From Gammaproteobacteria bacterium (lineage in GTDB: Bacteria > Pseudomonadota > Gammaproteobacteria > SAR86 > TMED112), in contig NYSP01000014.1 in the NCBI GenBank assembly GCA_002683115.1, positions 3,604 through 13,780 on the forward strand: 10,177 bases of DNA. The letters are read 5' to 3'. Within the stretch, counting starts at the first letter, position 1, and each line of letters begins with the position of its first letter. Position numbers and translations under genes: made by a program. The notes under the pieces were generated by a model that was not told the DNA's origin, searched no databases, and worked only from the letters and a program-made list of their open reading frames with translations. This document shows positions 709 to 10,177 of this stretch, in pieces.

Positions 709-2517
709 CTACCAACCGCAGCTTCTATTCTTATTTTGCTCATCTAACCATGCTTTTAAAGGAGCATAGTAATTAAGCATCGAAGTGCCATTTAGTTCTC
801 TTGTACCAATCATGCTTTCTAGCGCATCCTGCCAAGGCTTACTTTGCCCAAACGCAAGCATAGTCCTTAATTTTTCTCCAGCAAGTTCATTTCCATAAAT
901 AGAGCATTCATGCAAAGGTCCATCGAAGCCCATTGTTTTACATAAGGATTCATGAAATTGATATTGAAGAATTCTTGCTAAGTAATATCTGGTATATGGT
1001 GTATTTCCTGGTACGTGATATTTTGCACCAGGATCAAATGCATCTGCAGGTCTTTCATTTGGAGCACCAACTCCTTGATATTTTTCTCTTAATTCCCACC
1101 AATAAGCATTTAATTCATCATCACTAAGCTCGCCATTAAAAACGGCCATTCTCCATTTATCTAACATCAGTGTCCATGGTGTAGCTACAACGCTATCAAG
1201 TGCCTTTTTCATTAAAAAAGCTACTTCATTTTGTTTTGCTAAATCAGCTTCCTCACTAGAGGCAAAACCTATTTGTTCAAGATAATTTGGTGTAATTGAT
1301 AAAGTTAGCAAGTCGCCTACTGCTTCATGGAAACCGTCATTTGCTCCTCTTTGAAATACCACTGGTTGATCAGCGTATGCTTGATAATAAAAAATATGTC
1401 CTAATTCATGATGTATTGTAGAAAAATCTTCCTCATTTTTTTCAATACACATTTTGATTCTTAAATCTTGGTTCTTTGAATCTATATCCCATGCACTTGC
1501 ATGACAGACCACAGCTCGATCAACTGGTTTCACGAAAAGAGATCTTTCATAAAAAGTCTCGGGTAAGCGATCAAAACCTAAGCTTAAAAAGAAATTCTCC
1601 GAAATATTTACCATATCGATTTCGGTTAAACCCTTATCATTGATAACTTTAGTTATATCTATTGGTTTGCCAACAGACTCTTCCTTATAAACAATGTCAT
1701 ATATATTTGCCCATGATTGAGCCCACATATTTCCAAGCAAATGCGCAGGAATAGAGCCCTCATTAGGAACAACATCATCGCCATAGAACTCATTTAATTC
1801 TGCCCTTACGTGACATTGAAGGCCCTCATACAAAGGTTTTAGATCTTCATAAACTTTATCTACTGTCTCAGAAAACTCAGATGCTGGCATATCGTATTGA
1901 CTAAACCAAAGATCAGATAGACCATCAAAGCCAAGATCTTGAGCACCTTGATTACCAATATCTACCATTCTCAGATATTTCTCTTTCATGGGTTTACCAA
2001 TTTCTCTCCAACCACTCCAAGCCTTTAGTAATTCATCCGAATCTCTTGAATTGTCTATGATGCTTTCAAAGGCTTCCAAGTCATAACATTCATCTTCTGT
2101 AAAACAATGAGTACCGTTACCATACATTGCCTCCAATTCAGTCATAATTGAAGCCATTTCACCAGCTAGTGCCTCATCTAAAGGAGGTGGCATCACAAAA
2201 CCATTCTTAATTATATTTAGTGCTCTTCTATCAGCTTCACCTAATTCTAGATCATCAAATGTTGCCGCTGTTCTTGCTTGTTCTAATGATTCTAAAATAC
2301 CCCTTTTACTAAAGTCCGCTGCTACTTTTTGAGAATCATAGGTTATGAAATTTGATTGAATCCAGTACGCCGAAGAATAAACAGGTCCTTCTGTGACTGC
2401 TTTTTCTTGAACTTCAGCTAAAAAATCTTTCGCATCTTGCTCTGTAACGCTTTCTGTACTATCTGCACAGCTTATTAGGATAAATAACGGTATTAATAGT
2501 TTGATATGTCTGATCAT
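709..2517 (-). CDS. Peptidyl-dipeptidase A, M2 family (angiotensin-converting-enzyme homologue), lipoprotein
   Basis: A zinc dipeptidyl-carboxypeptidase expected to remove dipeptides from the C-termini of oligopeptides in the periplasm. From the ATG at 2517 it has 602 residues, the usual size of single-domain M2 enzymes. Residues 1-16 form a lipoprotein signal with lipobox LISC and Cys17. Visible M2 landmarks: HLLGNMWAQSW from residue 259, VCHASAW from 337, the zinc motif HELGH at 370-374, the third zinc ligand in HEAVGD (Glu398), then the C-terminal segments QYQFHESLCK, GPLHECSIYGN and GQSKPW. All catalytic residues appear intact. The alternative start at 2559 would put 14 polar residues before the signal peptide and lies upstream of a perfect extended -10, so I reject it. 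It heads an operon with the small exported protein at 272-700. The likely role is scavenging of dissolved peptides. The family call is very secure; the physiological substrate is inferred. Confidence 0.96.
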   Translation of the reverse strand: MIRHIKLLIPLFILISCADSTESVTEQDAKDFLAEVQEKAVTEGPVYSSAYWIQSNFITYDSQKVAADFSKRGILESLEQARTAATFDDLELGEADRRALNIIKNGFVMPPPLDEALAGEMASIMTELEAMYGNGTHCFTEDECYDLEAFESIIDNSRDSDELLKAWSGWREIGKPMKEKYLRMVDIGNQGAQDLGFDGLSDLWFSQYDMPASEFSETVDKVYEDLKPLYEGLQCHVRAELNEFYGDDVVPNEGSIPAHLLGNMWAQSWANIYDIVYKEESVGKPIDITKVINDKGLTEIDMVNISENFFLSLGFDRLPETFYERSLFVKPVDRAVVCHASAWDIDSKNQDLRIKMCIEKNEEDFSTIHHELGHIFYYQAYADQPVVFQRGANDGFHEAVGDLLTLSITPNYLEQIGFASSEEADLAKQNEVAFLMKKALDSVVATPWTLMLDKWRMAVFNGELSDDELNAYWWELREKYQGVGAPNERPADAFDPGAKYHVPGNTPYTRYYLARILQYQFHESLCKTMGFDGPLHECSIYGNELAGEKLRTMLAFGQSKPWQDALESMIGTRELNGTSMLNYYAPLKAWLDEQNKNRSCGW

Positions 2518-2523
2518 AAAAAA

Positions 2524-2532
2524 ATTATAGCA
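2524..2532 (-). promoter_or_regulatory. Extended -10 promoter of the M2 peptidase operon, apparently giving a leaderless mRNA
   Basis: The minus strand reads TGCTATAAT, a perfect extended -10. The hexamer (2529-2524) is followed by six T and then the ATG at 2517, so the expected start of transcription falls on or next to the start codon. There is no Shine-Dalgarno before this ATG. This both supports the lipoprotein start and argues against the upstream ATG at 2559. Confidence 0.6.
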
Positions 2533-2558
2533 TAGGGAAATTCTCTTACTCTTACACA

Positions 2559-2569
2559 TGTTATATAGT
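2559..2569 (+). promoter_or_regulatory. Possible -10 region for the small plus-strand genes
   Basis: TGTTATATAGT contains TATAGT (2564-2569, five of six matches to TATAAT), placing the transcription start at about 2576, the ATG of the 43-residue frame. The sequence is AT-rich and I see no convincing -35, so this is a weak call; it overlaps the region upstream of the divergent peptidase promoter. Confidence 0.35.
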
Positions 2570-3021: not shown

Positions 3022-4419
3022 TTAAGACCTAGCTCTTTTTCTGCTTCCGTGTAGCTCATAAACGGCTCTCGCCTTCTTTTTGAATTCGCTGTTGCTTCTT
3101 ATTTGCCAAACTAATTCTTTCGCCTTTTTTGCCGAACTTTTTAGATCTACTACCCTTTCTTTGTAAAGTTCATCTAATTCTGCAGAATGAATTAAATTTT
3201 TATCTATATCTTTTAGTTGAGGTAATTGGTCTTTAATCCAACTTGCTTCTGGATCTTGATCTTGGCTTTGTTTTGTAACCGAATATATTCTAGGAAGATT
3301 AATACCAGTTACTCCACTCTGCATTTGCACTTGGCAAATGTGAATGCCTGGCTCATAGTCTGTAAACGTACTTGCTAGCAATGGTGAGGTCTGTTGCCAA
3401 GGTTGCCATAAATTATATGATGCAAACGACATCAGCATTGCTCTCATTCTAAAATTAATCCATCCATATTTTTTTAGATAGGTCATACAAGCATCCACGA
3501 ATGGGAAACCTGTATTTCCTGAAATCCATTTATCAATTAATTCTCTATCAACTTCAGGTCTTAACTGATCACAATCCGGATGCATTGATTGATACTCAAG
3601 TGATGGTTGTGTATCGAGTTTTTGAATAAAGTGACAATGCCAATGGAGTCTTTTCTTAAAAGAATATAAATCCCAGCGATATCTAGAATTGTTAATATTA
3701 TTTTCTAGAGTTTGATAAATATCTCTTATAGAAATTGTTCCAAAGGCGATATGTGGAGAAAGCCTAGAGCAGGCATATTCAGCTTCTGAAGGGCTAGACA
3801 TTTTTTTTGAGTATCCTTTGCATCTGTGTTCTAAAAATGAGCTTAAAAGTTCTCTTCCTGAATCAGAACCACCTGTCTGAATTTGCATGTCTTGTGTCTC
3901 AAGAGTTGTTTTAAATTCTTTAAATTTCGGAAGATTAAGTTGATATAAATTATTGTTGGTTTTTGGTGAATTGTAAGGCTGCTTATTCATGTGCTTCTGC
4001 CAGCTGCTGGCCCACTTATCTCTATCAGGATTATCTATTTGTATGCCGAAGTCTTTGTAAGAATATAAATAAGGAAAGTCTTTTGATAAATTTTTTAATT
4101 GATTGCTGTGATAGTTAGTTTCTGTTGTGTGATTAATATGTAAATTAACATTCGGCAATGTTTCATGAAGAAATGTTTTTAAAGCACTTAAACTTCCTTC
4201 GAATACGTATAAATCGACATTTAGGTTATTTAATTTTATTTCTAATTCTTTAAGGCTGTCTAAAGCAAATTTAAGTTGATTTTTAGATCTATCAGATTGA
4301 GACCAATATTCTTTATCAAAAACATACAAACCTGCATAATCTTGATTTAGGGATGCATTATATAAGGCAGCATTGTCTTCAAGCCGGAGATTCCGGTGAA
4401 ACAGAGCTAAATCTTTCAC
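3022..4419 (-). CDS. Photolyase/cryptochrome-family FAD protein, atypical subgroup
   Basis: A 465-residue protein, typical of the family. The N-terminal half is the alpha/beta photolyase domain, beginning with FHRNLRLEDNAAL. The C-terminal half is the FAD-binding helical domain: GYS at 202-204, SPHIAFGTIS at 221-230, KWISGNTGFPFVDACM around 297-312, YGWINFRMRAMLMSF around 318-332, DYEPGIHICQVQMQSG around 354-369 and QSQDQDPEASWI near 384-395. The basic C-terminal tail (HGSRKRAR) is also seen in some photolyases. Expected activity is light-driven repair of pyrimidine dimers, but the FAD pocket departs from E. coli PhrB: by hand alignment the proximal Trp of the electron-transfer triad is Val364 and the residue facing flavin N5 is His360. 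It starts with GTG overlapping the oxidase TGA (GTGA), so it is translationally coupled to that gene. Family certain; substrate (CPD, 6-4 lesion or signalling) undecided. Confidence 0.93.
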   Translation of the reverse strand: MKDLALFHRNLRLEDNAALYNASLNQDYAGLYVFDKEYWSQSDRSKNQLKFALDSLKELEIKLNNLNVDLYVFEGSLSALKTFLHETLPNVNLHINHTTETNYHSNQLKNLSKDFPYLYSYKDFGIQIDNPDRDKWASSWQKHMNKQPYNSPKTNNNLYQLNLPKFKEFKTTLETQDMQIQTGGSDSGRELLSSFLEHRCKGYSKKMSSPSEAEYACSRLSPHIAFGTISIRDIYQTLENNINNSRYRWDLYSFKKRLHWHCHFIQKLDTQPSLEYQSMHPDCDQLRPEVDRELIDKWISGNTGFPFVDACMTYLKKYGWINFRMRAMLMSFASYNLWQPWQQTSPLLASTFTDYEPGIHICQVQMQSGVTGINLPRIYSVTKQSQDQDPEASWIKDQLPQLKDIDKNLIHSAELDELYKERVVDLKSSAKKAKELVWQIRSNSEFKKKARAVYELHGSRKRARS

Positions 4420-5018
4420 AAATCTTCTGCGTACTTATGATTGGTTTCGCTGTGATGCATCTCGTCAGCTCTTACTCTTTCGATTAAATCACTCAACTTA
4501 GCGTCTGATTTAAGATTGTAGTAATCAATAGCTAGCTTCGGAGCAGCAATATTCTCGATAGCACCAGACTGAACAAGCCTCAAATACTCGCTGTAGCTTT
4601 CCACTGCCTCATCTTCGAAGTAACCAATCATTCTATGTGAAGTTTTAGGAAATATTAGATACATGAAGAAATAAAACAACCCAAATACAAACTGAGCGCT
4701 TAGAACCAGAATTCTTTCAAATAAACTTGGTTTTGCTATTTCTATGAAAAACATCAAGTGCATTCTTTCATTCTCTGCCTCTGCAAGCATCTCACGTATA
4801 TGTTCGCCATAGCCTGTTTTCATTGCTCTTAGGCTTTTGAAATGCATTAGCATGCCAGCAACCATACCTGGAACTCCAGCTATAGTTTCAAGAACAACAG
4901 CTCTGTGCCCATAACGTTTAGCAAAAAAACGATCTGCAATAAATTTAAAAAACCTCGTCATGGACATCGCAAATGTGTCCGAAGTATTTATTATCGCTTT
5001 GTTAATTAGTTCTCTCAT
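4416..5018 (-). CDS. aox: Alternative oxidase (di-iron ubiquinol:oxygen oxidoreductase)
   Basis: A 200-residue protein that oxidises ubiquinol and reduces oxygen to water without pumping protons, bound monotopically to the inner membrane. All AOX motifs are present: LETIAGVPGM (iron ligand Glu44), AENERMHLM (Glu84 and His87), FEDEAVESY (Glu135) and RADEMHH (Glu186 and His189). The spacings are close to those of the trypanosomal enzyme as I recall them. A hydrophobic stretch around 103-123 fits the membrane-attachment helices. It lacks the long N-terminal extension of mitochondrial AOX, as is normal for bacterial forms. The first Met (5018) is used; it has only a weak purine-rich stretch upstream. 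It leads a two-gene unit with the photolyase. The likely role is relieving an over-reduced quinone pool or bypassing inhibited cytochrome oxidase. Confidence 0.97.
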   Translation of the reverse strand: MRELINKAIINTSDTFAMSMTRFFKFIADRFFAKRYGHRAVVLETIAGVPGMVAGMLMHFKSLRAMKTGYGEHIREMLAEAENERMHLMFFIEIAKPSLFERILVLSAQFVFGLFYFFMYLIFPKTSHRMIGYFEDEAVESYSEYLRLVQSGAIENIAAPKLAIDYYNLKSDAKLSDLIERVRADEMHHSETNHKYAEDL

Positions 5019-5034
5019 ATAAATATTTCTTATA

Positions 5035-5064
5035 AATATATATAAGTATTATTTATTTTATCAA
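5035..5064 (-). promoter_or_regulatory. Probable sigma70-type promoter of the oxidase-photolyase operon
   Basis: On the minus strand TTGATA (5064-5059, five of six matches to -35) is followed after 18 bases by TATATT (5040-5035, five of six matches to -10). An overlapping TATATA at 5042-5037 would give a 16-base spacer. The start would leave a leader of about 10 bases before the oxidase ATG at 5018. The region is very AT-rich, so chance matches are likely, but the pair is well placed between the upstream terminator and the gene. Confidence 0.45.
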
Positions 5065-5087
5065 GTTTGTTTATATAAATTTTTGTG

Positions 5088-5114
5088 AAAAAAAAGGGAG
5101 CGAAAGCTCCCTTT
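5088..5114 (-). terminator. Intrinsic terminator of the 256-residue exported protein gene
   Basis: A perfect 9-bp stem (5093-5101 with 5106-5114) closed by a 4-base loop (GAAA on the plus strand, TTTC in the minus-strand transcript). On the minus strand it is followed by eight T (from the A-run 5088-5095). It lies 17 bases after the stop codon at 5132 and separates that gene from the oxidase promoter immediately downstream. Confidence 0.9.
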
Positions 5115-5131
5115 AATGAGTTAATTGAATT

Positions 5132-5902
5132 TTATTTAATAGTGCTAAACACCCAATCAAGTTGGTATGTATCAGCGTCTGTACACGATTCAATATGTTT
5201 ATCTCTTTCCTTATATAAGCCCTTTTCCTCCATTAGAGCATTCCATTCAGGCCAATTTGATACGCCAGCTGATCTTGCTTCTGATGTAAACCAAATATAT
5301 GACATCAAGAAGTCATAAGGCGCATCTTGGATGCCTCTATATGGTGTAAAGAAGTGTATTGCGTAACCTCCCTCACCTCTATCTCTCGCAAGTTGCTCCA
5401 TTTCCGCATAGACTGCTTTTAATTCAGCCATATCAGCTCGAGGTTTCAGTGTGCACTGTCTCCAATCTGAAAACATGCGATCATCATAGGAATCTGCAGT
5501 TATTCTTAATACACGGTGATTCATCATAGATACAAAATTCTCACAATCACCTGCTGATTGAGCAGGCACATCATTTTCAGATGCCCAGGCAGGATAATCA
5601 TTCATATATGCACCCCACTCCTTATATTGCATTTCTCCATTAGGCCAATTACCCCACATGACATAATCATATTCAGAATCATTGTCCCAGATAGGTTGAA
5701 GATTTAAACGGTTGTATTCAAGCCCATTTTCTTCGAGAAACTGCTCATATGTTTCTTGTTCGGTTACAACGTCTTGATATGTTTTACCTTCATTGAAGTT
5801 GCAGAACATGAACTCAGATCTGTAAATAGTTTGTTCAGAAGTCTGTGCTTGTATATTATCCATAAAGATAATAAGTGTTAGTAAACTAAGTAATTTTTTC
5901 AT
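5132..5902 (-). CDS. Exported protein of unknown function with two similar halves (possible dimeric alpha/beta-barrel repeats)
   Basis: A 256-residue protein. The ATG at 5902 has a near-perfect GGAGG (5913-5909) with a 6-base spacer. Residues 1-19 are a signal peptide (ending IQA, cleavage before Gln20), so the product is periplasmic or secreted. The mature part divides into two halves of similar plan. Half 1 has FMFCNF, a helix, a strand ending NLQPIWD, then YDYVMWGNWP and a Trp helix (EWGAYM). Half 2 has WRQCTL, a helix, the strand AIHFFTPYRG, then YDFLMSYIWF and another Trp helix (NWPEWNALM). Each half therefore has strand-helix-strand-strand-helix with one Cys in the first strand, the topology of ferredoxin-like dimeric alpha/beta barrels (NIPSNAP/ABM type), a resemblance of pattern only. 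It diverges from the SRAP gene and has its own terminator. Function unknown. Confidence 0.85.
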   Translation of the reverse strand: MKKLLSLLTLIIFMDNIQAQTSEQTIYRSEFMFCNFNEGKTYQDVVTEQETYEQFLEENGLEYNRLNLQPIWDNDSEYDYVMWGNWPNGEMQYKEWGAYMNDYPAWASENDVPAQSAGDCENFVSMMNHRVLRITADSYDDRMFSDWRQCTLKPRADMAELKAVYAEMEQLARDRGEGGYAIHFFTPYRGIQDAPYDFLMSYIWFTSEARSAGVSNWPEWNALMEEKGLYKERDKHIESCTDADTYQLDWVFSTIK

Positions 5903-5945
5903 TAAAGTCCTCCAGATATTACCGTACCAAAAAAATACATATTTG

Positions 5946-5973
5946 TTGTGTATTTTTCTTTAATTCTTATATT
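5946..5973 (+). promoter_or_regulatory. Probable promoter of the SRAP gene, leaderless
   Basis: TATATT (5968-5973, five of six -10 matches) ends 6 bases before the ATG at 5980. TTGTGT (5946-5951) is a weak -35 at a 16-base spacing. No Shine-Dalgarno precedes the ATG. Because the start codon is fixed by the catalytic Cys2 of the protein, the position of the -10 implies an mRNA that begins at or within a base or two of the AUG. Confidence 0.5.
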
Positions 5974-5979
5974 TAATTT

Positions 5980-6522
5980 ATGTGTGGCCGTTTTGCAATT
6001 GTAGGTGACCCTTTTGAGATTGGTTATAAAGACAATTTCAATGTATCGCCTTCATCAGATATTCCAGTAAAAACAATTAATTGCGATGGACAGCTTATGA
6101 AATGGTCATATTCGCCATCTTGGAAAAAAGATATGAATCTTATTAATTGTCGATCTGAAACTATGTTTGAAAAGCCATCCTTCAAAGGAGCATCAAGATG
6201 CATTATCCCTTTTTCTGGTTGGTATGAATGGCAAAGAAAAGACGATGTTAAGATACCGTTTTATCATTATTCTTCTGCTAAATACTTTGCAGGCATATAC
6301 AATGAAAATGGTTGTTGTATTTTAACTAGAGAGGCTGGAGATAAAATAAATCATATTCATCATAGACAACCAGTCTTACTAAATGAATTTGAAATTGGTG
6401 AATTTTTTATGGGTGAAAATCTGTTCGACTCTCCTACTAATTATGATGTAAATTTCTATGAAGTTACTAGAGAAGTAAATAATCCAAGAAATAATTATGC
6501 AGGCTTAACTAAAGAAATTTGA
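5980..6522 (+). CDS. SRAP-family protein (HMCES/YedK): abasic-site DNA-protein crosslinker and autoprotease
   Basis: A 180-residue SRAP domain. The family forms a stable thiazolidine crosslink between its N-terminal cysteine and abasic sites in single-stranded DNA, shielding them at replication forks; the initiator Met is removed to expose the Cys. Visible residues: Cys2 in MCGRFAIVG, FNVSPSS at 20-26, Asn56 in NCRSET, RCIIPFSGWYEW at 73-84 with Glu83, and the catalytic His127 in HHRQPVLL. These correspond to Cys2, Asn75, Glu105 and His160 of E. coli YedK. It is some 40 residues shorter than YedK, the saving being in loops rather than catalytic motifs. Cys2 fixes the start beyond doubt. It is divergently transcribed from the 5132-5902 gene and followed by a 50-residue membrane protein after 13 bases. 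Its role matches that of the nearby photolyase in tolerating DNA damage, but they are not in one operon. Confidence 0.96.
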   Translation: MCGRFAIVGDPFEIGYKDNFNVSPSSDIPVKTINCDGQLMKWSYSPSWKKDMNLINCRSETMFEKPSFKGASRCIIPFSGWYEWQRKDDVKIPFYHYSSAKYFAGIYNENGCCILTREAGDKINHIHHRQPVLLNEFEIGEFFMGENLFDSPTNYDVNFYEVTREVNNPRNNYAGLTKEI

Positions 6523-6864: not shown

Positions 6865-7131
6865 ATGTTGAGATTACTAATTTTATTATTACCAATGATG
6901 GCGTACAGTGAAGATATAAAAGATCAAAAAATATCTGATATAAGTGTTGAGGATTTAACTAATATAGTGAGGATGGTGGTTCAGGAAACCCTATCATTCT
7001 GTATGGTTACTGGAGAAATGGAAGGCAGAGCAAAACTAAACCTTGCGGTAGAAGGTGAAGTTATAGCTAGACTAGAATGCAATTTCGAAGAGCCAGTAGA
7101 TGTCGAGGAAATGGAAGAGTCTAAAGATTAA
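6865..7131 (+). CDS. Small exported protein of unknown function (88 residues)
   Basis: The ATG at 6865 has AGGAG (6854-6858) with a 6-base spacer. Residues 1-15 form a short signal peptide (MLRLLILLLPMMAYS), cleaved probably before Glu16, leaving a mature protein of about 73 residues that should be periplasmic. The mature chain is acidic, with two Cys (in LSFCMV and LECNF) that could form a disulfide. The middle, KLNLAVEGEVIARLECNF, alternates like a beta-hairpin, and the C-terminus is a strongly acidic tail rich in Glu and Asp. It is convergent with the outer-membrane protein gene, with only 8 bases between the stop codons and no visible terminator. I recognise no family and assign no function. 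Confidence 0.75.
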   Translation: MLRLLILLLPMMAYSEDIKDQKISDISVEDLTNIVRMVVQETLSFCMVTGEMEGRAKLNLAVEGEVIARLECNFEEPVDVEEMEESKD

Positions 7132-7139
7132 GTCTGATT

Positions 7140-8045
7140 CTAAAATAAACTATCGCTTTTTAAACTCAAGCCTAATTTAAAATTCCAGAAATTGTCGTCA
7201 CCACCCACGGAGTTTGGTCTTTTTACATCGAGTGGTGTGTATGAAGTTCCTAAATGAAGCATTAAATCTTCTGATAATTGATAATTAACACCAAAATTAA
7301 ATGTATGAAGTGTACCTTTCGTTTCAACAAAAGCTATTTCTCTTGTTAGCTCTAGTTGTGCATCAATACGTACGGAGGGGTCAATTCTAGTTGTTGCAAT
7401 AGAGGCCCAAGGTTTAAATTTCGCGTCAGTTTGCGGCTGAGCAAAGACAAGCTCAAAACCCCTATGGCTAAGATCAATTTTATCTTTTGATGTGGCAATG
7501 CATCCGGATGGATTACCTGGCGAATAAAGTGGCTGGTTTACCACAGCTTCACTACAAGTAACATCTGCAATTGCGCTACCTGAAAGTGCATATAATCTTA
7601 AACCTAGATTAACAGAATCATTCTTGAAGATTTGTTTTGACATTGCCAAGCCATATAAGTTTTTAGGCTTTGCACCTTTTATCTCCAATGAGGGTGTATA
7701 AGAAAACTCTAAAATCCAATCGCGGTAGAAACCTACTTTGATCTTTCCTCTACCAAAAAGTGGTGATTTATTGAGATCTTCATATTTAAAACCCCCAAAT
7801 CCAATCTTTTGTTGTTCTCGATTCAATTCAGGTATTGTGCTTAATTCCGCTGAAATTACTAATTCACCAAGTTCTAGCGGCTTTGGGAAGCTATCTGTTA
7901 GATTGAGAGAAGCTGATGACATATATGACATGCCCCAGCCCTCTGGGCTATCAAAATCTACTTCTTGGGAGCTAATTACAGGGCTTGCCTGAGCCTTTAA
8001 AGAAAGAAAAAAGGATACTATTAGTATGAATAAAATTCTTTTCAC
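7140..8045 (-). CDS. Predicted outer-membrane beta-barrel protein, family not recognised
   Basis: A 301-residue protein starting with GTG at 8045; an AAGGA lies 11 bases upstream, slightly far but usable. Residues 1-20 are a signal peptide ending in AQA. The rest shows the barrel pattern of alternating polar and hydrophobic strands separated by turns: WILEFSYTPSLEI, VNLGLRLYAL, RGFELVFAQPQT, HTFNFGVNYQL, LMLHLGTSYTP and finally FWNFKLGLSLKSDSLF, ending in Phe as outer-membrane proteins do for BAM recognition. One predicted loop carries two Cys about 18 residues apart (VTCSEA and SGCIAT), a likely surface disulfide. It lies 23 bases after the big nuclease gene with no terminator between, so it is probably co-transcribed. 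It could serve nucleotide or DNA-fragment uptake or anchor the nuclease, but that is inference from position alone. Confidence 0.75.
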   Translation of the reverse strand: MKRILFILIVSFFLSLKAQASPVISSQEVDFDSPEGWGMSYMSSASLNLTDSFPKPLELGELVISAELSTIPELNREQQKIGFGGFKYEDLNKSPLFGRGKIKVGFYRDWILEFSYTPSLEIKGAKPKNLYGLAMSKQIFKNDSVNLGLRLYALSGSAIADVTCSEAVVNQPLYSPGNPSGCIATSKDKIDLSHRGFELVFAQPQTDAKFKPWASIATTRIDPSVRIDAQLELTREIAFVETKGTLHTFNFGVNYQLSEDLMLHLGTSYTPLDVKRPNSVGGDDNFWNFKLGLSLKSDSLF

Positions 8046-8068
8046 GTTAATAATATCCTTATGATTTA

Positions 8069-10177
8069 TTAATCAATAACTTGGATAACACCAGAACCAG
8101 CCATGCCCGGATGTAGCGTACACCAATAATACATAGTGCTATTAGTGAGATCTTCAGGCACTGTCCATGTTATTGTGCCTTGGTTCACATAAGTTACGCC
8201 ATTATCATATGCAAAACCACCATTCCAAGCTCCATCTGAGGTTGTGCTTAGCCTAAATGGATGAGCATTAGCAAAGTCTGAGACATCAAATATATATGTC
8301 TGACCTCTCTTAACAGTAATTGTTGCATGCATTACGCCGTCAATGATGTAATCAAGACCAGAAGCTGTTACAACAAAAGTTGTTGGCTCTGTACCAAAGG
8401 TTTGATCAGCATTCTGTGTACCTTTTGTTTTTGTAACTGGTCCTACCCATGTAAAATCACTACTTACGGTTCCAGTCCCAGTTTTTTGGAGTGAATCCTC
8501 TGGAGGTGTGCTATTACTTTGAATTACACCAATATCATTTGATGTGAAAGAAGAACATGGACCATCTGTAGGTGACATTGTTCCTTCATAACTTATAAGC
8601 TCAGCACAATCACCATTTTGATCAATGAGTCCAATTCCATCTGGAGCACCATTTTGTATTTGTGAAGATTCTGCAACAACAAATCCATATCCTTCACCTG
8701 CGTCTTCAATTACGCCTGAGAGTGATATTTGATCGTACAATGAATCATTATTGCCATTGTAAAACTCTAGCTTCCAGCCTGATAGATCAGTACCAGCAGG
8801 TCCAGCGATTTCAACATATTCATCTGTATCAACACCAACCATATCGTAGTGCAACTCATTTATAAATACTGATCCTTCTGGTGCGTCGCCGCCACCGCCG
8901 CCGCCACCGCCGCCGCCGTCTCCGTTAGCTGGCAATGTAGGAAGTGGGCTATCGTCACAATTTGCTTCTTCCGCTTTGATGAAATTGTATTCATTTTCAT
9001 CGAAATAAAGATCATTTAAGTGTTTAACTTCTACCCACTTTTTAAGGTAAGTACAATGGTATTCAGAAAGTGGTGGCATCCATTCTGTAGGATCACTTGA
9101 GCCTTTAGGACCATTTGTAGCGCCTCCAACTGCTAAAAATTGATTAGAAGTTTCAGGAAGTGTTCCTGCCACCTTATTACCTGTATTAGCAAAGTTTACT
9201 TTTTCCTCGGCGGTCCAAGCATTATCACCTGTAGCACCAGCTCCACTGATATGACTCTCATATAAAGCAACAACGTGATCTATTTGAATATCAGAGGCAT
9301 TATAGTAGAAAGAACCATCAAATGGATCTTGCCACTTACCTGTAAGAACAGAGCAACCACTAGAAGAAAATACCAATGGGTTAGAGGAATCATCATCTAT
9401 ATGTTGAGCTTGAAGAACCTCATGTCTATCTGATTTACAATCTTCGTCTGTATCTCTCCATGTTGGATAATCAGCATCTCTATCGTAGAAATCTGAAGGC
9501 ACTTCACCAACTAAAACAGCTTTTGAGAATAAGAATGTCTCAGGTGCTGGTGTTGGTTCAGGCGTAGGTACAGGATCATCGAAATCTTGATCTGTATTAA
9601 TAAAACCAGCCGAGTTATTAACTGGTCCAACCCATTGAAAATCTGGACCATAGTAACCCGTTCCTGTTCTTTGTAATGAATCAGTAGCTGAACTATTTTG
9701 TTCAAAAACTCCTATGTCTTGTCCTTCTACACCGTCACAAGCACTGCCGCCTCCGACACCACTACCAGCGTTTGCAGTAAATGAACCCTCGTAAGCAAAA
9801 AATTCTGCACATTCACCATCCGGATTAACTAATCCAATTCCATCTTGAGCACCGTTTTGTAATCCTGTTTCGATACTTGACGGTATATCAAATTTTATGG
9901 CTCCATACCCTCTATTTCCTTCATCCTCGAGTGTTCCTGTAAGATTAATGGTTCCATAGTGTCCAGAATCACCACTACTATATAGAACGAGACTGTAACC
10001 ATCGAGATCAGTTCCAGCTATTCCAGCAACTTCAATAAATTCATTCTCATCAGCACCTTGATTATCATAATGAAATTCATTTACCCAAACAGGTGATTCA
10101 GTGCCTGGTGTTGGCTCTGGTGTTGGCTCAGGCGTTGGCTCAGGCGTTGGCTCAGGCGTTGGCTCAGGTGTTGGCTC
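8069..10177 (-). CDS. Large secreted multidomain nuclease (lamin-tail, HNH, lamin-tail, cupredoxin), 5' end outside window
   Basis: The minus-strand frame is open from the right edge to the TAA at 8071-8069: 702 visible residues with the N-terminus missing. Order: six EPTP repeats (1-24); lamin-tail domain 1 (30-186; WVNEFHYDN, FIEVAGIAGTDLDGY, TDSLQRTGTG, FQWVGP); Pro/Glu linker (201-213); HNH nuclease domain of the secreted DUF1524/GmrSD-C-like type (214-410; DFYDRD, DTDEDCKSDRHEVL, DIQIDHVVALYES with His301, then Asn345, Asn355 and Lys358, and PTEWMPP), with four Cys for two disulfides; ten Gly (421-430); lamin-tail domain 2 (437-585; INELHYD, YVEIAGPAGTDLSGW, DSLQKTGTG, FTWVGP); cupredoxin (596-702) with ligands His639, Cys686, His689 and Met692. 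Each lamin-tail domain has a matching Cys pair. Export is inferred from the disulfides and linkers. Probably extracellular DNA degradation, as with lamin-tail nucleases such as ExeM. The GTG at 9502 lies inside the nuclease domain and is not the start. Confidence 0.92.
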   Translation of the reverse strand, partial: EPTPEPTPEPTPEPTPEPTPEPTPGTESPVWVNEFHYDNQGADENEFIEVAGIAGTDLDGYSLVLYSSGDSGHYGTINLTGTLEDEGNRGYGAIKFDIPSSIETGLQNGAQDGIGLVNPDGECAEFFAYEGSFTANAGSGVGGGSACDGVEGQDIGVFEQNSSATDSLQRTGTGYYGPDFQWVGPVNNSAGFINTDQDFDDPVPTPEPTPAPETFLFSKAVLVGEVPSDFYDRDADYPTWRDTDEDCKSDRHEVLQAQHIDDDSSNPLVFSSSGCSVLTGKWQDPFDGSFYYNASDIQIDHVVALYESHISGAGATGDNAWTAEEKVNFANTGNKVAGTLPETSNQFLAVGGATNGPKGSSDPTEWMPPLSEYHCTYLKKWVEVKHLNDLYFDENEYNFIKAEEANCDDSPLPTLPANGDGGGGGGGGGGDAPEGSVFINELHYDMVGVDTDEYVEIAGPAGTDLSGWKLEFYNGNNDSLYDQISLSGVIEDAGEGYGFVVAESSQIQNGAPDGIGLIDQNGDCAELISYEGTMSPTDGPCSSFTSNDIGVIQSNSTPPEDSLQKTGTGTVSSDFTWVGPVTKTKGTQNADQTFGTEPTTFVVTASGLDYIIDGVMHATITVKRGQTYIFDVSDFANAHPFRLSTTSDGAWNGGFAYDNGVTYVNQGTITWTVPEDLTNSTMYYWCTLHPGMAGSGVIQVID
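8888..8917 (-). repeat. Poly-glycine codon run (ten GGC/GGT) in the nuclease gene
   Basis: Ten consecutive Gly codons, eight GGC and two GGT, make a GC-rich trinucleotide repeat in otherwise AT-rich DNA. It encodes a flexible hinge between the HNH domain and lamin-tail domain 2. Slippage would add or remove whole glycines without shifting the frame. Confidence 0.95.
10106..10177 (-). repeat. 12-bp tandem repeat encoding EPTP, continuing past the right edge
   Basis: Six near-identical 12-bp units, each encoding Glu-Pro-Thr-Pro on the minus strand, differ only at third positions (GAG; CCA/CCT; ACA/ACG). The sixth visible unit touches the window edge, so the true copy number is unknown. The product is an extended, rigid Pro-rich linker or stalk, common in secreted bacterial enzymes. 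A degenerate version of the same motif recurs at 9540-9575 (PTPEPTPAPE). Confidence 0.95.

Follow-up and report, generated by a model that had tools for sequence, protein, structure and literature searches.

At the edge of the window, the whole 10,177-nucleotide stretch of DNA analysed here, which comes from an uncultured SAR86 bacterium of the ocean, lies a gene for a predicted nuclease in which two lamin-tail domains (LTDs) flank a His-Me-finger (HNH) domain and a cupredoxin closes the chain. We consider it likely that the protein is tethered to the cell surface, where it would break extracellular DNA and so feed nucleoside salvage. The architecture is real and makes biological sense: LTD-bearing extracellular nucleases are the known kind to which the protein belongs, and the LTD-HNH-LTD-cupredoxin variant is what is new.

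The minus-strand frame (8069-10177) is open over 702 codons, stop-free, and runs off the window edge according to the ORF list and the translation; it encodes, in order, EPTP repeats, an LTD, the His-Me-finger (HNH) nuclease, a poly-Gly stretch, a further LTD and the cupredoxin (Table 1). The first-pass annotation had proposed such a single open frame and had cautioned that a start at the GTG at 9502 would conceal half of the protein. Both points are borne out, given that no stop lies between 9502 and 10177 and that this mechanical start leaves merely 477 aa, with LTD1 lost. The full module order is seen again in five separate public SAR86 assemblies (L001-L004 and L008, 68-91% identity) and is therefore not an assembly artefact; the stop-free frame together with this recurrence in independent assemblies rules out a frameshift or artefact. 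The closest genome loci come from SAR86 (best segments: L001, L002 and L003, 90-91%; L008, 73%; L007, partial, 69%; L004, 68%); L003 and L004 are titled Gammaproteobacteria only, and G003 and G004 share the order of G001. The LTD is the sole Pfam match of the window protein, and a PDB sequence search gave no convincing relative for the whole protein, the nuclease or the cupredoxin. Promoter and terminator scans of 7000-8200 stayed at chance level, as did a strict promoter pattern across the window (0 matches).

Table 1. Features of the window, with residue numbers counted along the 702-codon frame
Feature	Position	Strand	Detail or basis
M2 (ACE-type) peptidase, lipobox-like leader by eye	709-2559	-	Pfam
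Photolyase/cryptochrome	3022-4419	-	Pfam
Alternative oxidase	4416-5018	-	Pfam
Exported protein, unnamed family	5132-5902	-	
SRAP gene	5980-6522	+	Pfam
Gene after the nuclease, 301 aa, judged by eye an outer-membrane beta-barrel	7140-8045	-	23 bp from the nuclease frame
Cupredoxin domain	8072-8389	-	residues about 597-702; ligand set H639, C686, H689, M692
LTD2, lamin-tail domain	8396-8884	-	residues about 432-594; PF00932 match
Poly-Gly linker	8888-8917	-	residues 421-430; translation
His-Me finger (HNH) nuclease domain, DUF1524/GmrSD_C-like	8933-9538	-	residues about 214-415
D300-H301 of the DHVV motif	9275-9280	-	D and H invariant in 25 aligned sequences including the window
PTPEPTPAPE-type Pro/Thr linker	9539-9574	-	translation
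LTD1, lamin-tail-type domain	9584-10093	-	residues about 29-198
EPTP repeat stalk, cut by window edge	10106-10177	-	residues 1-24; 12-bp tandem repeat 10110-10177, 5.7 copies

The window edge cuts the gene inside the 12-bp EPTP repeat, and L002, from a separate SAR86 genome, has a contig that stops at the same repeat, so that a repeat-driven contig break is likely in both cases. Since the window ends before both the start of the gene and the salvage genes described below, these are taken from relatives. All six orthologues whose start is present (L001, L003, L004, L007, L008 and L060) open with a short hydrophobic leader that ends in VAAC (Cys19) and continue with Gly, 8-13 PT repeats and LTD1; the lipobox is without Asp at +2 in 6/6 of them, the window copy being cut before its own start. 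Because orthologues with a start carry this lipobox and stalk, the protein is most likely a stalked lipoprotein of the outer membrane, and we infer that the window copy shares their start, lipid anchor and upstream neighbours. The N-terminal lipid and the Pro/Thr stalk would hold the enzyme on the SAR86 outer membrane, facing outward. A freely secreted enzyme, as the earlier description of a secreted nuclease would have it, is thus less likely. The suggestion that the EPTP array heralds further upstream modules is ruled out by the same orthologues, which have the lipobox leader and stalk there and nothing else.

The two lamin-tail domains named in the first-pass annotation are both retained. 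The whole protein scores 36.3 bits against PF00932 (cut-off 34.3), with LTD2 as the best stretch (residues 432-523); excised alone, LTD2 scores 27 bits, under the cut-off. LTD1 has no Pfam match when excised alone and counts as an LTD only through its 43% identity to LTD2 (E 7e-45). These domains probably hold substrate DNA or position the enzyme. Shewanella ExeM, of the ExeM/NucH family, is likewise an exported nuclease with an N-terminal LTD, and the available part of the article on it reports that the form without the LTD degrades DNA more slowly in vitro, and that cells with that form clear DNA almost like the wild type (PMC6085458). This dispensability of the LTD for DNA degradation by cells, seen in a plate test in the same part of that source (PMC6085458), argues against such a role. 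The catalytic domain of ExeM is of the EEP type (PF03372), and its C-terminus bears a hydrophobic segment, whereas the window protein has a His-Me finger and its relatives have an N-terminal lipid anchor. Other LTD proteins in the first search also pair the LTD with PF03372 (e.g. P0027-P0029), and membership of ExeM/NucH was rejected, with no EEP (PF03372) match. In the library searched, we found no paper joining a lamin tail domain with HNH, and a literature search on nuclease, cupredoxin domain and extracellular DNA found nothing related.

The HNH stretch of the window copy has no Pfam match, PF07510 (GmrSD_C/DUF1524) being without a match at E<=1, and nothing in NCBIfam matched the nuclease. 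It shares 33% identity over 87% with the PF07510 carrier P0126 (E 9e-13), and hhalign, which compares profiles, gives a probability of 99.9% against GmrSD_C/DUF1524 (E 1e-35, 210 columns). Relatives of the window nuclease score against PF07510 on both sides of its cut-off of 23 bits: P0017 (11.7), P0003 (15) and L062 (20.5 bits) fall below it, and the SAR86 relative L072 lies above it (33.4 bits). The window nuclease is a clear distant relative, a distant branch of the GmrSD_C/DUF1524 group, and the P0126 and hhalign matches vindicate the earlier assignment to the DUF1524 type although the window copy itself lacks a PF07510 match. Secreted PF07510 HNH proteins are homologous across the nuclease domain; the window copy differs in being too divergent for the Pfam model, in lacking the Excalibur and SH3 domains of P0048 and P0047, and in lacking the GmrS part. 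A literature search on secreted extracellular DUF1524 nucleases returned a sole match, which is fungal. A classical GmrSD restriction enzyme was rejected, with the LTD as the sole Pfam match, no GmrS-type N-terminal domain and a lipobox in the orthologues.

Relatives for the nuclease and cupredoxin alignments were chosen by hand, and in 25 aligned sequences D96, H97, N127, N151 and K154 are invariant. For the predicted fold of the domain, VIA-align places Endonuclease I closest, with Foldseek alone at E 0.33; in these fold comparisons a family's absence from the matches listed carries no weight. The D/E-H motif, the downstream N and, in the predicted structure, the beta-beta-alpha fold identify a His-Me finger, which would hydrolyse extracellular DNA. 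Endonuclease I (EndA/Vvn, PF04231) resembles the domain in its predicted fold and differs from the window protein in its partners and in the lipid anchor; membership of that family was rejected, with no PF04231 sequence match. It is very improbable that the protein is an adhesin without nuclease activity, with LTD and cupredoxin binding polymers and the HNH fold serving as a scaffold: the two LTDs, the Pro/Thr stalk and the cupredoxin do make up most of the protein, and cadherin-like domains replace the stalk in other lineages, but D-H and N do not vary across the 25 aligned sequences, and lipobox-HNH proteins without any other recognised module exist.

Such proteins belong to a wider series of arrangements, for the modules around the nuclease are shuffled from one lineage to the next. 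In L055, L056 and L059 the nuclease domain makes up a lipoprotein without other recognised modules; elsewhere it comes with a cupredoxin at the C-terminus (L057, L058, P0054), with one LTD (L061, P0113 and P0051, the last with its start missing) and with cadherin-like domains (L062; a Cadherin or Big_9 label also marks 15 of the 54 proteins P0059-P0112). Cadherin-like domains accompany two LTDs in L005, L006 and P0010-P0017; in Halieaceae/'Alteromonadaceae' proteins, loci L005 and L006 among them, they precede an LTD-HNH-LTD core that has no cupredoxin. L072 reads LTD, cupredoxin, cadherin-like, HNH, cupredoxin. The complete LTD-HNH-LTD-cupredoxin order is found in the window, L001-L004, L008, L060 and P0001-P0009, all of the last set without a leader. 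Among the matches listed, this exact architecture is limited to a SAR86 clade and unnamed environmental proteins, the first protein search having scored the 7,991 candidates with most words in common. In a tree of 35 hand-picked rows, with architecture labels set from patterns and reading, the window's architecture forms one group of 7 rows (support 93/87, just under starred). Cupredoxin-bearing HNH proteins stand in three places of this tree, some on weak forks: one is the group of the window, another holds the HNH-cupredoxin rows, and the third is L072, which bears two cupredoxins. Because of these three positions, the cupredoxin has probably been joined or lost more than once. In L005, a second LTD-bearing stretch (3672-4229, minus strand) lies on the opposite strand near the cadherin-LTD-HNH-LTD gene.

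The cupredoxin has no Pfam match; comparison of the predicted structure with rusticyanin, amicyanin and pseudoazurin supports a cupredoxin fold. The window domain has the same ligand order as these three proteins (H...C-x2-H-x2-M), at about 12-25% identity, and differs from them in that they are known copper carriers with no nuclease; the short spacing of its ligand loop recalls amicyanin. Across the window and 12 chosen relatives, none of the four type-1 copper ligands varies; in another set of 24 proteins, 14 lack the C..H..M pattern. The domain had been called a cupredoxin of the copper-binding type from the outset; fold and ligand residues bear out the cupredoxin, and it may bind copper. 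With its intact type-1 ligand set, the cupredoxin would be an accessory module, most likely for binding or stabilising at the surface, with a redox role possible. A more direct part for the metal, in which the cupredoxin delivers or cycles copper for oxidative DNA cutting or copper controls the nuclease, is quite improbable. The invariant ligands and the joining of cupredoxin to nuclease in three places of the tree would fit it, but the C..H..M pattern occurs in just 3 of the 80 nuclease relatives listed, some of them fragments, and in 9 of the 25 SAR86 nuclease genomes, one of the remainder being cut off. Moreover, a His-Me finger needs no copper, and type-1 sites are buried electron-transfer sites.

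The same domain links the protein to phages. The cupredoxin matches 280 of 50,697 phage records, nearly all from marine cyanophages, and the H-C-H-M ligands are kept in the window and six hand-picked phage proteins (L090-L095). Homologous cupredoxin domains (E 8e-19) are found in tail proteins of phages (PHROG 677), among them the cyanophage gp9 baseplate wedge/tail-fibre connector. These proteins are annotated as virion parts, and the annotations of the six stretches differ from the window in having no nuclease or LTD. The HNH region matches just 6 of the 50,697 records, at 25-28% identity, and these belong to phages of Vibrio, Gordonia and Rhodococcus; a cyanophage origin for the whole gene was rejected, the cyanophage matches being those of the cupredoxin. 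A speculative and rather doubtful possibility is that the same cupredoxin does the same job on the SAR86 nuclease and on phage tails, those of cyanophages and of Pelagibacter phages, as a marine surface-attachment domain, possibly copper-gated, that would bind a common component of cell envelopes or particles and would have moved between phages and bacteria. No paper on a cyanophage cupredoxin was found by title, the sole match concerning Borgs, and a search on plastocyanin-like structural proteins of cyanophages gave nothing plastocyanin-like among the matches listed. This phage-shared cupredoxin is the least explained part of the protein.

The phage link and the nucleoside-salvage genes next door both lie beyond what the first-pass annotation could see. 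In relatives, the nuclease is preceded by genes for a receptor (TonB-type/OMP_b-brl_4), an oxygenase of the 2OG-Fe(II) type, a CNT nucleoside transporter and a divergent thymidine kinase (TK), as seen in five orthologous loci holding upstream DNA (L001, L003, L004, L007, L008) and in L060. The CNT of L001 matches PF07662 (5e-67) and TIGR00804 (3.6e-99, though under that model's own cut-off) and, as a NupC-type protein, solved nucleoside permeases at 1e-68; its TK matches PF00265 (5e-47) and scores above the cut-off of NF003300. In L004 (G004, C63:4707-5259) the TK frame is split in the assembly (two pieces, one stop). The oxygenase matches thymine dioxygenase 5c3p (E 2e-18) and might act on thymine or a nucleoside; because an ethylene/succinate-forming enzyme and two proteins with no stated function rank ahead of 5c3p, a thymine-directed activity stays a lead. 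L005 and L006, from Halieaceae/'Alteromonadaceae', have no match to the TK, CNT, 2OG or receptor genes of L001. Izemoplasmatales DNA-degradation loci place an LTD nuclease alongside probable nucleoside/nucleobase transporters, as in SAR86 (PMC8289736, available part); they belong to a different phylum, and HNH, DUF1524 and SAR86 do not occur in the main text of that paper (PMC8289736).

A survey of 203 genomes of the SAR86 order found the nuclease in 25, TK in 132 and CNT in 128. TK is present in 25/25 nuclease genomes vs 107/178 others (Fisher p 9e-6, phylogeny ignored), and CNT in 22/25 vs 106/178 (p 0.004, phylogeny ignored). In genomes of about 1 Mb, nuclease and TK lie 199-2925 bp apart in 19 of the 25; in G102, G132 and G159 the two sit on separate contigs and far from each other, and for three others (G002, G049, G054) contig ends leave the distance undecided. 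Two parts of the nuclease tree show this linkage. In the window's wider clade (L055-L061 and the orthologues) TK, CNT and 2OG genes adjoin the nuclease; in the L062 group TK is 1.7-2.9 kb off, with other genes between and no CNT nearby. L070 and L071, sisters of the L062 group, show no nuclease-TK linkage. Among eleven TK loci chosen by hand, a receptor-CNT-TK locus is present in SAR86 genomes without the nuclease (L079-L081, L084-L086, L088), and receptor, kinase, 2OG, CNT and TK stand together without it in L079-L081, L086 and L088, the kinase being called PfkB from Pfam for L088 and L083 and by eye for the others; L089 has this five-gene locus with the nuclease on another contig. Because nuclease-free SAR86 genomes keep it together, the salvage locus is independent of the nuclease. 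Two of these nuclease-free genomes carry a 951-aa gene, an M14 peptidase by Pfam in L084, which adjoins TK there (3550-6405) and is separated from it by one SRAP gene in L085 (3121-5976).

On the other side of the nuclease, an orthologue of the predicted beta-barrel gene follows in 6/6 same-architecture loci that reach it (L001, L002, L003, L004, L008, L060), and no match to it is found in the five other-architecture loci of the wider clade that reach far enough (L055, L056, L058, L059, L061), L057 being left out of this count as its contig ends first. The gene has no significant Pfam match and no PDB match, and it is a candidate pore for nucleotides or nucleosides. The exported protein beyond it has distant relatives (23% identity) near the nuclease in L062 and about 7 kb from it in L059. 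The order of the M2 peptidase, photolyase, alternative oxidase and SRAP genes is largely kept in SAR86 relatives; the photolyase is gone from that place in L001 and is there in L002, L003 and L060.

A surface nuclease could also be aimed at others, destroying the DNA of phages or competitors, or could loosen the DNA of biofilms or organic particles, with no feeding involved. We regard this as unlikely. A likely surface location and the resemblance of the cupredoxin to phage-tail parts favour it, as does the implication of ExeM, an LTD nuclease, in biofilm formation (PMC6085458, available part). Against it, the neighbours in relatives are salvage genes, and the window protein and two relatives matched none of the PADLOC families, by which a known defence gene is ruled out. 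Use against phages meets a further difficulty: the DNA that a phage injects would not normally meet an outer-membrane enzyme.

Under the preferred reading of DNA breakdown for nucleoside salvage, the products of the nuclease would be dephosphorylated by a separate enzyme and taken in across the outer membrane, the NupC-type transporter would carry them over the inner membrane, and thymidine kinase would re-phosphorylate and so trap thymidine. Against this route, which we infer from sequence, stand the three genomes with nuclease and TK well apart, the salvage loci that lack the nuclease and the absence of matches in L005 and L006. The shared gene order, seen inside a single order, may also be a matter of inheritance, and no nucleotidase is among the genes identified in the locus. 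SAR86 is among the most abundant groups of ocean bacteria, and its use of DNA as food seems little described, with no paper titled on it found. The locus presents a testable route that would lead from extracellular DNA to salvaged nucleosides, and the cupredoxin common to phages and this nuclease raises the concrete question of what such domains do on virions.
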